The position numbers were made by a program, and so were the translations under genes. DNA of 64,000 nt from Nitrospirota bacterium (GTDB taxonomy: Bacteria > JACPQY01), in NCBI GenBank assembly GCA_016180645.1, contig JACPAV010000006.1, positions 62,001-126,000 on the forward strand. The letters run 5' to 3'. A model generated the notes under the pieces. It saw nothing but the letters and a program-made list of their open reading frames with translations. It had not been told where the DNA came from and made no database searches. Each line of letters starts with the position of its first letter. Position 1 is the first letter of the stretch. This document shows positions 5,298 to 31,048 of the stretch, piece after piece.

Positions 5298-6404
5298 TCA
5301 GGAGGGTTGAGGCGGCGTCTCCCTCTTGAGAAACCGGCCGATCGATCCTGATGCGCCGATTCCGAGGGCCATCAACACTTTCTGCTCTTCACTGCCGACC
5401 GGCTGAATCCCGTTCGATCCGATCCCCAGTGAGCCCAGGAGGACTTGGCCGTACCAGATCGGAACGCAAAAAAGTGATTGCATCTGGGCGGACGCCTTCA
5501 CTTCCGGCGGGAGTTTCCAGTCGTCCACTCCGTCCGCCTTCTGCTTGAGGATCGGCTTCTGCCCCTTGATGCTTTCGAAAAAGGCCGAACCCTCCTCCTT
5601 CACGATCACCGGATCGCCGAATCCCTGGGTCGTATGGGAATAGAGCATGTGCTTGGCGCCGTCGGTCAGGAGGAGAAAAGATGAGTCCGTCTGCGTAAGT
5701 TGAAGGGCGGATTTCAGGATGCTTCTCGAACATTCGTAAAGGGATTTCGCATTATAGACCGACGGCACCGACTCGATGATCGAGACAAGCGATTTCAGGC
5801 GCCGCTCGTATTTCTGCATCAGTCGGAAATTCTCGATGAGCGAAGCCGCGCCGTGGGAGATCTCTTTGAGGATCTCCAGGTCGTCCGCCGTAAAAACGTC
5901 GTTTCCCTTCTTGTTGATCCACTCCACCACGCCGTACACCTTCCCCCGGATATTGATCGGCATGCAGAGGATGGAGCGCGTTTCGAATTTCAGCGCCTCG
6001 CTGATTTCCTTGAAGAAGCGGGGATCCTTGAAGACGTCCGACACCGCCAAGGTCTCCGACGTTTCGGCGCTGTATCCCGCAATGCCCTTCCCCATCGGCA
6101 CCCTGAACTTCATGACCTGATCGGCCGCGGGGCCGCGGGCGGCGACGAAGAAGAGATCCCCCTTCTTCTCGTCCACTTCCAGAATGCTGCCGGCCTCGCA
6201 ATCCACGGCCTCCATGCACAGATCCATGATCTTGTTGATAAGCACACTGAACTCACCCCGCAGGGAAAGCAGGGACACCAGTTTCCCAACGATTTCGAGG
6301 CGCTTACCGAGTTGGGTTACACCCTGATCGAAGACGAGACCTTCGGAGATCTGGACCTCCTCCGGCGTGGGTACTTCCTCGGGGGTTTCCAATTCGATGG
6401 TCAC
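5298..6404 (-). CDS. Tandem GAF-domain sensor protein
   Basis: 368 residues with two GAF domains (about 45-195 and 215-360) and no output domain. The first carries the typical GAF features G-S-I-L, PMGKGIAGYSAET and a CMPI...G-V-V-E-W core. The second ends in LGSLGIGSNG. It could bind a small ligand or cyclic nucleotide, or act as a scaffold. It sits 2 bases upstream of the pilus ATPase, so a role in controlling pilus retraction is a reasonable inference. The ligand cannot be told from the sequence. Confidence 0.8.
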   Translation of the reverse strand: MTIELETPEEVPTPEEVQISEGLVFDQGVTQLGKRLEIVGKLVSLLSLRGEFSVLINKIMDLCMEAVDCEAGSILEVDEKKGDLFFVAARGPAADQVMKFRVPMGKGIAGYSAETSETLAVSDVFKDPRFFKEISEALKFETRSILCMPINIRGKVYGVVEWINKKGNDVFTADDLEILKEISHGAASLIENFRLMQKYERRLKSLVSIIESVPSVYNAKSLYECSRSILKSALQLTQTDSSFLLLTDGAKHMLYSHTTQGFGDPVIVKEEGSAFFESIKGQKPILKQKADGVDDWKLPPEVKASAQMQSLFCVPIWYGQVLLGSLGIGSNGIQPVGSEEQKVLMALGIGASGSIGRFLKRETPPQPS

Positions 6405-6420
6405 GAAGATCGACTCTCTT

Positions 6421-6948
6421 CTACTGTCCCCAACTGTCCCAAAGGATTTTCAATTCCGGTTTGCGGCCGCTCATGCCCGAAACCTTCAGCACCATGTGTT
6501 CCTTTCGGTTCCCATCCTCGTACGCAACCTTCACCACGTCCCGATCCAACCACTCCGGCTTAAGGAAATACCAGGCTGCCCCGTAGTGCGTGGCCGGATG
6601 GGGGATCAGTTTGGCCGCCTCTTCCGTTTCGAAGAACTTCTCAACCTCTCCCCGATCGATTTCCGCACCGGAGGAGACCACCTCGGCGGGACCGCCCTTG
6701 GCCCGCTCCCGGATGCTCTCAATCTTGTCCTTTAGTGCACCGATAATCGCCTCGGGTTTCTGGAGATTCACGCCCTGGGCGGGCGCGGGCTTCTTGGATT
6801 TGAGCCACTCCGGCTCCCGAAAACCGCGGATGTCCATGATCATGTACATGACAGCCACGGTCAGAGCGGACGCGAAAAGGGCCTTGATGTTCCCGGCTCC
6901 TCGATGGTTTGCAGCCACGGGAAGCATCTTACCTCGGAACGCCTTCAC
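6421..6948 (-). CDS. Uncharacterised single-pass membrane protein
   Basis: 175 residues with one hydrophobic segment near residues 22-40 (IKALFASALTVAVMYMIMD), then a soluble, mostly periplasmic-looking domain with conserved-looking Trp residues (AAWYFLKPEW, ILWDSWGQ). I do not recognise a family. The first ATG at 6948 overlaps lipA by 20 bases. A second ATG at 6927 begins right after the lipA stop and is equally plausible. It lies 16 bases before the GAF gene in the same transcription unit. Confidence 0.6.
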   Translation of the reverse strand: MKAFRGKMLPVAANHRGAGNIKALFASALTVAVMYMIMDIRGFREPEWLKSKKPAPAQGVNLQKPEAIIGALKDKIESIRERAKGGPAEVVSSGAEIDRGEVEKFFETEEAAKLIPHPATHYGAAWYFLKPEWLDRDVVKVAYEDGNRKEHMVLKVSGMSGRKPELKILWDSWGQ

Positions 6949-13600: not shown

Positions 13601-13959
13601 ACACCCGCGCCGATCATCTCCACATTGAATTTCTTCAAGACACCGCGCTCGGCAAGATCCAATGCGAGATTGAGTCCGGTCTGACCGCCGAGAGTGGGAA
13701 GAAGGGCTTCAGGCCTCTCCCGCTCGATGATTTTGGCCACCGCGTCCACCGTGAGCGGCTCCACGTAGGTTCGGTCCGCAAATTCGGGGTCCGTCATGAT
13801 GGTGGCCGGATTCGAATTCACGAGGATCATCTTGTAGCCCTCTTTGCGGAGGATCTTACAAGCCTGGGTTCCGGAGTAGTCGAATTCACACGCCTGGCCG
13901 ATGACGATCGGGCCGGAGCCGATGAGCAGGATCTTCTCGATGTCCGTCCTCTTAGGCAT
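10684..13959 (-). CDS. carB: Carbamoyl-phosphate synthase large subunit
   Basis: Makes carbamoyl phosphate from bicarbonate, ATP and ammonia delivered by CarA. It feeds both pyrimidine and arginine synthesis. The 1091 residues show the two ATP-grasp halves (about 1-400 and 555-935), the oligomerisation segment between them and the C-terminal allosteric MGS-like domain (about 940-1090). The start at 13959 ([17 protein letters not shown]) is the family start and overlaps the carA stop by 8 bases. A reading 6 codons longer, to 13977, is less likely. Confidence 0.96.
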
Positions 13960-15202
13960 GCCCAGCCGCCCCCTCATCCATCATCTTGAGGAACCGGTCG
14001 AAAAGGTAGCTCGCGTCATGCGGCCCAGGGGACGCCTCGGGGTGGTACTGCACGGAGAAGACCTGCAGCTCCGTGTGCCGCATCCCCTCCACAGTCCGAT
14101 CATTCAGATTGAGGTGCGTGATTTTCAGTCCCTTTGCGAGTGAATTATCGGCCGTCATGCCCACCGTCCGTGGATCGACGGCGAAACCATGGTTCTGGCT
14201 CGTGATCTCAATCTTTCCCGTTTCCAAGTCCGCCACGGGGTGGTTCGCTCCATGGTGTCCATATTTCAGCTTGAACGTTTTCCCGCCGAACGCCAGTCCC
14301 AGGATCTGGTGCCCGAGGCAGATGCCGAAGATCGGTTTCTTCCCCAGCAGTTTTCTCACGTTCTCGATGGCGTATGTGACGGCTTCGGGATCACCCGGCC
14401 CGTTGGACAGAAAGATGCCGTCCGGCTTCCATTCGAGAACTTGCTCGGCGGACGTGGAGGCCGGGACCACTCGAACCCTGCACCCGGCTGAGGCCAACAT
14501 GCGAAGGATATTCCACTTGATCCCGTAGTCGAAGGCGACGACGTTGAACGATCGTTGGCGCTCATCCCCACCCTCACCCTCCCCCTTCGAGGGGGAGGGG
14601 AATTCTTGAGGCCCTTCCCCCCTTGAGGGGGAAGGTGCGGATGGGGGGGTCCGAAGGACGCCCTTCCAGTCGAAGGCTGTTGGCGTCGTGACATCGCGCA
14701 CCAGATCGACACCTACGATGCTCGGAAGGGCGCGCGCTTTTTCCGCCAAAGTTTTCGGATCAAGCATTTCAGTGGAGATGATTCCCTGCATGGCGCCTCG
14801 CTCACGCAGCCGGCGCACGAGCGCGCGGGTATCCAGGCCCTGAATGCCCACGATTCCGTGTTTCTCCAGATAGCGCCCGAGCGAGCCGCCCGAGCGGAAA
14901 TTGCTGGGCCGGTCCCAATACTCTTTCACGATGAATCCCTGGACATGGGGCTTGGATGACTCTACGTCATCCTCGTTCACGCCATAGTTTCCGATTTCGG
15001 GATAGGTCATGACCACGAACTGGCCGCGATAGGAGGGGTCCGTCAGGATCTCCTGGTAGCCGGTCATCGCCGTGTTGAAAACCACCTCGCCCGTGGTTTC
15101 GCCTTCCGAACCGAAGTTCGTGCCCTCATAGATTGTTCCATCCGCAAGGGCGAGCAGCGCGGGGCGAGGTCTTCCAGCGCGGAGGAACTTGGCTTTTCTC
15201 AT
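13952..15202 (-). CDS. carA: Carbamoyl-phosphate synthase small subunit with an in-frame palindromic insert
   Basis: Glutaminase subunit of carbamoyl-phosphate synthase. The 416 residues comprise the N-terminal CPSase_sm domain (about 13-175) and the class I GATase domain (about 218-410) with the nucleophile Cys in GICLGHQ and the His-x-Glu pair in QYHPEAS. Between them, residues about 185-216 (Pro/Ser/Gly/Glu-rich, two copies of an SPS-K/R-GEG motif) have no counterpart in the family. They are encoded by a dispersed DNA repeat that also occurs in two intergenic regions of this window. The frame and all catalytic motifs are intact, so the protein is probably functional. Start and stop overlap pyrC and carB by 4 and 8 bases. 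Confidence 0.95.
14563..14652. repeat. Dispersed palindromic repeat, copy A, inside carA
   Basis: Two adjacent hairpins, CTCCCCC-TTCGA-GGGGGAG and CTTCCCCCCTTGAGGGGGAAG, are bounded by CATCCCCACCC and GGATGGGGGG. The same order and near-identical sequence appear intergenically at 19563-19652 and 30909-31048, all in the same orientation on the plus strand. In carA the length keeps the reading frame. Confidence 0.9.
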
Positions 15203-19562: not shown

Positions 19563-19652
19563 TTCTCACCCCCACCCCTACCCTCCCCCGTCAAGGAGGA
19601 GGGAAATTGGATCCCTTCCCCCCTAGCGGGGGAAGGTCAGGATGGGGGGCGC
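19563..19652. repeat. Dispersed palindromic repeat, copy B, between tadA and the MscS gene
   Basis: Same two-hairpin architecture as the copy inside carA: CACCCCCACCC boundary, CCTCCCCC...GGAGGG hairpin, CTTCCCCC...GGGGGAAG hairpin and GGATGGGGGG boundary. It fills the entire gap between the two genes and ends only 4 bases before the channel ATG, so it also supplies that gene's upstream region. Confidence 0.9.
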
Positions 19653-23639: not shown

Positions 23640-23807
23640 CGTGTTAAGAGGCTCTGACTCTCTGACGCGGGCTAAAGCCCCATGCCACGGAAGGTATGGG
23701 ACCATGATATGTCGCCGCACCACGGATGGTGCGGCATGGAACATGGCCCGCGGCTACCATGAATCTGAATCTCCGGTAGGCGCAGGCTTTATGCCTGCGG
23801 AGATCCC
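23640..23807. repeat. Cluster of three short palindromic repeats between sucA and sucB
   Basis: Three hairpins fill the 174-base gap: GGGCT-AA-AGCCC, GCCGCACC-ACGGAT-GGTGCGGC and GCAGGC-TTTAT-GCCTGC. The last unit (23776-23800) recurs almost identically at 30951-30975, inside another repeat. The array ends a few bases before the sucB ATG and leaves no classical ribosome site, so it may influence the sucA:sucB ratio. Confidence 0.8.
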
Positions 23808-30908: not shown

Positions 30909-31048
30909 ACCCACCCCCACCCGAACCCTCCCCCGTCGAGGGGGAGGGGGTAGGCGCAGGCTTTATGCCTGCGTCCGAAGACGCACCCGTAAAGGGTGCG
31001 GCTACCGTCCCTTCCCCCCTTGCGGGGGAAGGTGAGGATGGGGGGTGC
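30909..31048. repeat. Composite repeat: copy C of the carA-type element with another repeat nested in it
   Basis: The outer element shows the CACCCCCACCC boundary, CTCCCCC-GTCGA-GGGGGAG hairpin, CTTCCCCCCTTGCGGGGGAAG hairpin and GGATGGGGGG boundary. Between its two hairpins (about 30950-31007) sits a different unit made of GCAGGC-TTTAT-GCCTGC and GCACCC-GTAAA-GGGTGC. The inner unit is shared with the sucA-sucB gap. It must have inserted after the outer element. Confidence 0.85.

Follow-up and report, generated by a model that had tools for sequence, protein, structure and literature searches.

The carA gene in the window, by which we mean the whole 64,000-nt stretch of DNA analysed here, carries an in-frame insert that we interpret, with a probability of roughly 0.8, as an old copy of a non-autonomous MITE with IS66-type ends that is often read through within genes as a disordered linker. 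Copies of this element have landed in many genes besides carA. In the course of events that we propose, an element of approximately 127 nt would insert while duplicating 8 bp of its target, with an IS66-type transposase, acting in trans and since lost, as its likely mover. Copies arriving in genes would often be read through as a disordered segment rich in Pro, Ser, Gly and Glu, after which selection would retain mainly those that are read in the most hydrophilic frame and that lie in linkers. For carA, this would be the linker before the glutaminase domain.

The carA ORF (carbamoyl-phosphate synthase small subunit; 13952..15202, minus strand, 416 aa) is uninterrupted across both hairpin units of the insert and reaches 509 bits against TIGR01368, for which the cut-off is 307. 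The preliminary description had placed a two-hairpin repeat within this gene and considered its frame intact; both points are borne out, the repeat occupying 14562-14650 with boundaries that move by only 1-2 nt. It consists of a left unit of the L type (14562..14600, plus strand; 57.9 bits and E 2.5e-8 with covariance model R1), an 11-nt spacer (14601..14611) of the short form common to four other 89-nt copies, and a right unit of the R type that is inverted relative to the left one (14612..14650, minus strand; 58.0 bits and E 2.3e-8 with the same model). The gain in protein length is smaller than the approximately 32 residues first claimed: about 31 residues derive from the repeat sequence, and the net gain is about 25 compared to CarA of the closest relative (G001). 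In the HMMER alignment, E. coli CarA is shorter by 18 residues over the stretch with the insert.

We aligned the window protein with 12 insert-free CarA proteins, and also with PDB chains of E. coli CarA. The insert lies in the linker that follows the N-terminal domain and precedes the glutaminase domain, and this linker is shorter in CarA of G001, a family relative and the only other genome compared from the same phylum, and of 11 other bacteria; the insert is in none of these and present only in the window protein. A structure prediction based on the 13-sequence alignment is confident on either side of the insert, with pLDDT values below 50 only at the N-terminus and at residues 185-215, the sole internal stretch, which corresponds to the insert. 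The insert is apparently translated into a flexible linker, and from the intact ORF together with the predicted disorder we infer that the enzyme tolerates the encoded peptide. At the flanks of the carA copy, terminal repeats were placed by their position relative to intact copies. A probable decayed left repeat, GTTGGCGC (14554..14561, plus strand), matches GTAAGCGT at 5/8 positions, and a probable decayed right repeat (14651..14662, minus strand) matches CTGAACGGTTAC at 6/12, each match being weak on its own; no target-site duplication survives at the flanks. Since the ends match only to this extent and the duplication is gone, the carA copy is old. Its membership of the family rests on the units, their order and their spacing, which gives good but not complete confidence.

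The repeat is found throughout the 4.7-Mb genome to which the window belongs (G000, a draft of 65 contigs) as well as in G001, the two genomes being 97% and 84% complete. A 31-base pattern of the repeat gave 39 matches in the 4.7-Mb genome versus 0 for the reversed control, and the covariance model of the 39-nt unit gave 66 matches in G000 and 27 in G001 at E<=0.01; the repeat thus clearly exceeds what chance would give. After grouping, with somewhat weaker matches included, units occur at 52 places in G000 and at 20 in G001; this list, which was compiled from profile and pattern searches, is possibly incomplete. An Rfam search with the repeat matched no family. Two further copies within the window, which had both been described as intergenic, are real and contain both units (plus strand). 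The one at 19566..19651 is indeed intergenic and lies between cytidine/deoxycytidylate deaminase-like and mechanosensitive-channel-like genes, names that come from sequence reading only. For the one at 30911..31047, of which the spacer is filled by a GTAG...CTAC REP pair (30950..31008, plus strand), the description has to be adjusted: read on the minus strand, it stays open in the frame of the probable signal-peptide start that follows it, and is either located upstream of the gene or part of an N-terminal extension of its protein. Elsewhere in G000, the copy at C16:79118 (L209) abuts a long C run, possibly an assembly problem. Related hairpin units occur in very large ORFs (L218, L219, L223 and L196, in C57, C60, C36 and at C15:90460 of G000), in a similar place between Cys-containing repeats, and these possibly spread by gene duplication and not by independent insertion.

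The structure of the element is apparent from its better preserved copies. The units converge in all 29 two-unit copies, and in 28 of these one unit is of the L type and the other of the R type; in the only exception, a unit is truncated. C5:110943 and G001 C79:30867 look like misfits, but prove to be truncated matches of the unit. Alignment of the flanks shows that intact copies reach GTAAGCGT at one end and CTGAACGGTTAC at the opposite end; the element ends in GTAAGCGT(TCA) and GTAACCGTTCAG, and inward of each end lies a C-rich hairpin unit. The terminal inverted repeats of intact copies read GTAAGCGTTCA / GTAACCGTTCA, or GTAAGCGTTCA / GTAACCGTTCAG. Immediately outside the ends there are 8-bp direct repeats, e.g. 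CACTGAGG/CACTGAGG, AGACTTTC/AGACTTTC and AAGCAAAG/AAGTAAAG. In the nine copies with the best ends, to which this statistic is confined, the duplicates match at 58/72 positions at zero shift versus 13-22/72 at shifts of 1-4, and 0 out of 100,000 shuffles reached 58. The consensus is 127 nt long, with further forms of 109 nt and 157 nt. Because of its terminal inverted repeats and 8-bp target-site duplications, the element is a MITE: short, multi-copy and without a transposase gene. That the repeat family moves, as had been claimed from the sequence of the window, is shown directly by these duplications.

A second repeat family in G001 has the same GTAAGCGTTCA ends and a different interior (L266:1632-1752 and L267:1561-1674), with exact 8-bp duplications, TCGCGCCG and AAGGATGA, at these two loci; ends similar to those of this family also occur at L268, L269, L270, L271 and L275. 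In G000, copy L198 (C61:4111-4216), flanked by the perfect duplication TCATGGTC, is located where a PP2C-like gene begins, and the likely start codon of that gene is part of the duplicated sequence.

The IS66 family is recognised by a terminal repeat starting with GTAAGCG and by 8-bp direct repeats (PMC11946415, PMC3281130), and an IRL GTAAGCGTCCGG and IRR GTAACCGTCCGG of the IS66 type have been published (PMC12888890). The element described here has both this terminal start and direct repeats of this length. Since its ends and its 8-bp duplication match the IS66 family, an IS66-type transposase is the likely mover, and mobilisation would have taken place in trans by an enzyme that is now absent. 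A resident IS66 parent was looked for and not found: the IS66 transposase (PF03050) was not found in the 97% and 84% complete genomes G000 and G001, and an exact search for GTAASCGTTCA returned only short repeats and isolated sites, around which we did not recognise any long element sharing these ends. The resemblance of the element to IS66 is confined to its ends, tnpA, tnpB and DDE transposase genes being absent. The missing autonomous partner weakens the IS66 link, and not the MITE assignment.

With its duplication, an insertion of the consensus adds 127 + 8 = 135 nt, or 45 codons, and for the forms of 109 and 157 nt, the total is 117 and 165 nt. Element plus duplication being a multiple of three, full-length insertions keep the reading frame, and since three of the six frames of the consensus are also free of stops, genic copies would frequently be read through. 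The best single case, at C15:94538, has a perfect duplication AGACTTTC on both sides and near-perfect ends, and lies in frame in an ORF of 1788 aa that encodes protein-kinase and AAA domains before the insert and TPR, GAF and sigma-54 domains after it. Removal of the element and one duplicate (135 nt) yields ...PAKTFILFTAAAEG..., which contains no stop and leaves the ORF open; this copy is read in a frame other than the favoured one discussed below. In-frame copies are also present in genes for methylmalonyl-CoA mutase (in the G001 gene, with none in the G000 gene), malQ, two cheA genes and an MFS transporter. Units are flanked on either side, or spanned, by Pfam domains in the MFS transporter, the two cheA genes, a radical-SAM/PCP_red protein, a TraC-like ATPase and a GcvT-like protein, as well as in an AhpC/pyridine-nucleotide oxidoreductase fusion. 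In malQ, PCMT and a GMC oxidoreductase, the copies are located upstream of a recognised domain. In the fusion gene (L204:2824-4374), AhpC/TSA-like and pyridine-nucleotide oxidoreductase domains share one ORF with the unit at their join, and the element may have made this gene fusion.

Copies within genes are not read in all frames alike. When coding ORFs were assigned by an automatic codon-usage criterion, and one- and two-unit copies were pooled, 20 out of 27 copies were in the frame that gives PSPxxGEG-type peptides, where one third would be expected (p = 1.8e-5). This favoured frame is used by 14/18 one-unit copies (p = 1.4e-4), and by 6/9 two-unit copies, which on their own do not reach significance (p = 0.07). 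Direct reading of the unit sequences shows that all frames inside a single L or R unit are usually open, and therefore stops alone do not explain the bias. We infer that it results from the removal of harmful frames.

Could the repeat have another origin than a MITE? Two inverted hairpins with a spacer are also what a REPIN looks like, in which paired REP hairpins are moved by a RAYT tyrosine transposase and no target duplication is made. The genome contains seven Y1_Tnp matches; two proteins encoded on C34 match NF047646 (REP_Tyr_transpos) at 71 bits, below the cut-off of 80, three units lie 1-2.5 kb downstream of these RAYT-like genes, and some spacers harbour a true GTAG REP. However, the 8-bp duplications and extended terminal repeats do not fit a REPIN, and the hairpin foot of the consensus carries no GTAG tetranucleotide or variant thereof, only the nested repeat having one. 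Furthermore, no convincing unit was found in the examined flanks of other RAYT-like genes in either genome, and approximately 0.4 neighbourhoods with a unit near a RAYT gene are expected by chance, as estimated from copy numbers. With units flanking only one cluster of RAYT-like genes and the duplications arguing against it, we rejected a REPIN/RAYT origin as quite improbable. The two RAYT-like proteins on C34 of G000 are encoded in tandem (L098:4213-5295 and 5615-6577), and the three element copies downstream lie in a locally duplicated stretch. The GTAG-type REP (GTAGGCGCAGGC-loop-GCCTGCG) is found at 23775-23799 and 30950-31008 of the window, its GTAGGCGCAGGC half matches the genome about 70 times, and it is nested in the spacers of several MITE copies. 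It is a family different from the MITE, and is probably linked to the RAYT-like genes.

For carA itself, the decayed ends, and the fact that the same hairpin type is found singly in G000 and in other phyla, could suggest that, instead of a MITE copy, carA received a REP-like repeat with one hairpin, or two such repeats in separate events. We consider this unlikely, as carA has one L and one R unit that converge like those of nearly all two-unit copies, and as its 11-nt spacer length recurs in other 89-nt copies. The single hairpins of this type in other phyla are without terminal repeats, as are many single-unit places here, and some of the single-unit copies, also among those in genes, may belong to a distinct REP-like repeat. 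That the insert stems from assembly or binning is hardly credible: while the repeat is high-copy in a draft of many contigs, with some copies at contig ends or beside C runs, the carA ORF is open and coding-like on both sides, genes bearing the repeat recur in two independently assembled genomes, and exact duplications flank copies, which misjoins would not create. Finally, the recurrent use of one frame and the repeated presence in interdomain linkers, e.g. of cheA and the radical-SAM/PCP_red protein, might mean that the encoded segment is kept for a useful role, such as a regulatory or partner-binding linker. This is very unlikely in our view, since the host genes have nothing obvious in common, relatives manage without the segment, and the frame bias is explicable by counterselection against harmful frames.

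How palindromic elements enter coding sequences without destroying the gene has been a question since the discovery of the Rickettsia elements, for which no target duplication has been established. The recent copies of the MITE described here display its ends and its duplication, along with the arithmetic by which the frame is kept, with a second genome for comparison, and provide a testable route from selfish DNA to protein linkers, essential enzymes included. Tentatively, one might go further and regard the element as shaped to be harmless in genes: its length classes of 109, 127 and 157 nt all become multiples of three with the 8 bp added, and at least one stop-free frame per orientation would encode a disordered, hydrophilic linker. 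Such a selfish, frame-neutral element would seed linkers throughout the proteome, and would be a case in which duplications reveal an insertion mechanism that is unknown for the Rickettsia elements.

Rickettsia palindromic elements (RPEs) are approximately 105-150 bp long and occur in frame in many unrelated conserved genes, where they encode a recurrent, tolerated peptide (PMC10969869, PMC2229807); their target duplication is listed as unknown (PMC2229807). The comparison with RPEs made in the preliminary description holds as an analogy, for here too in-frame copies in unrelated protein genes give a recurrent, linker-like peptide. Identity is unsupported, as the host is another, the sequence is different as far as seen, and the present element is a MITE with defined IS66-type ends and a clear 8-bp duplication. 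GTAG- and CGTC-tagged REPs are palindromic repeats that lie in genes of several bacteria and are read in frame there (PMC3733652), but these are tagged with GTAG or CGTC at one end, whereas the element here has GTAAGCG inverted repeats and an 8-bp duplication. ERIC, YPAL, the 107-bp Correia element and the Coxiella QMITEs are likewise small and non-autonomous, with open frames, and are found in frame in ORFs (PMC2229807, PMC5896051), yet their ends and hosts are unrelated to those described here. In our literature search, we came across no previous account of a MITE of the IS66 type that is read through in genes. IS66 insertion sequences themselves share with the element the terminal repeats starting with GTAAGCG or GTAACCG and the 8-bp direct repeats (PMC11946415, PMC12888890, PMC3281130), but measure approximately 2.5-3 kb, whereas the element is 127 nt long and carries no tnpA/B/C.
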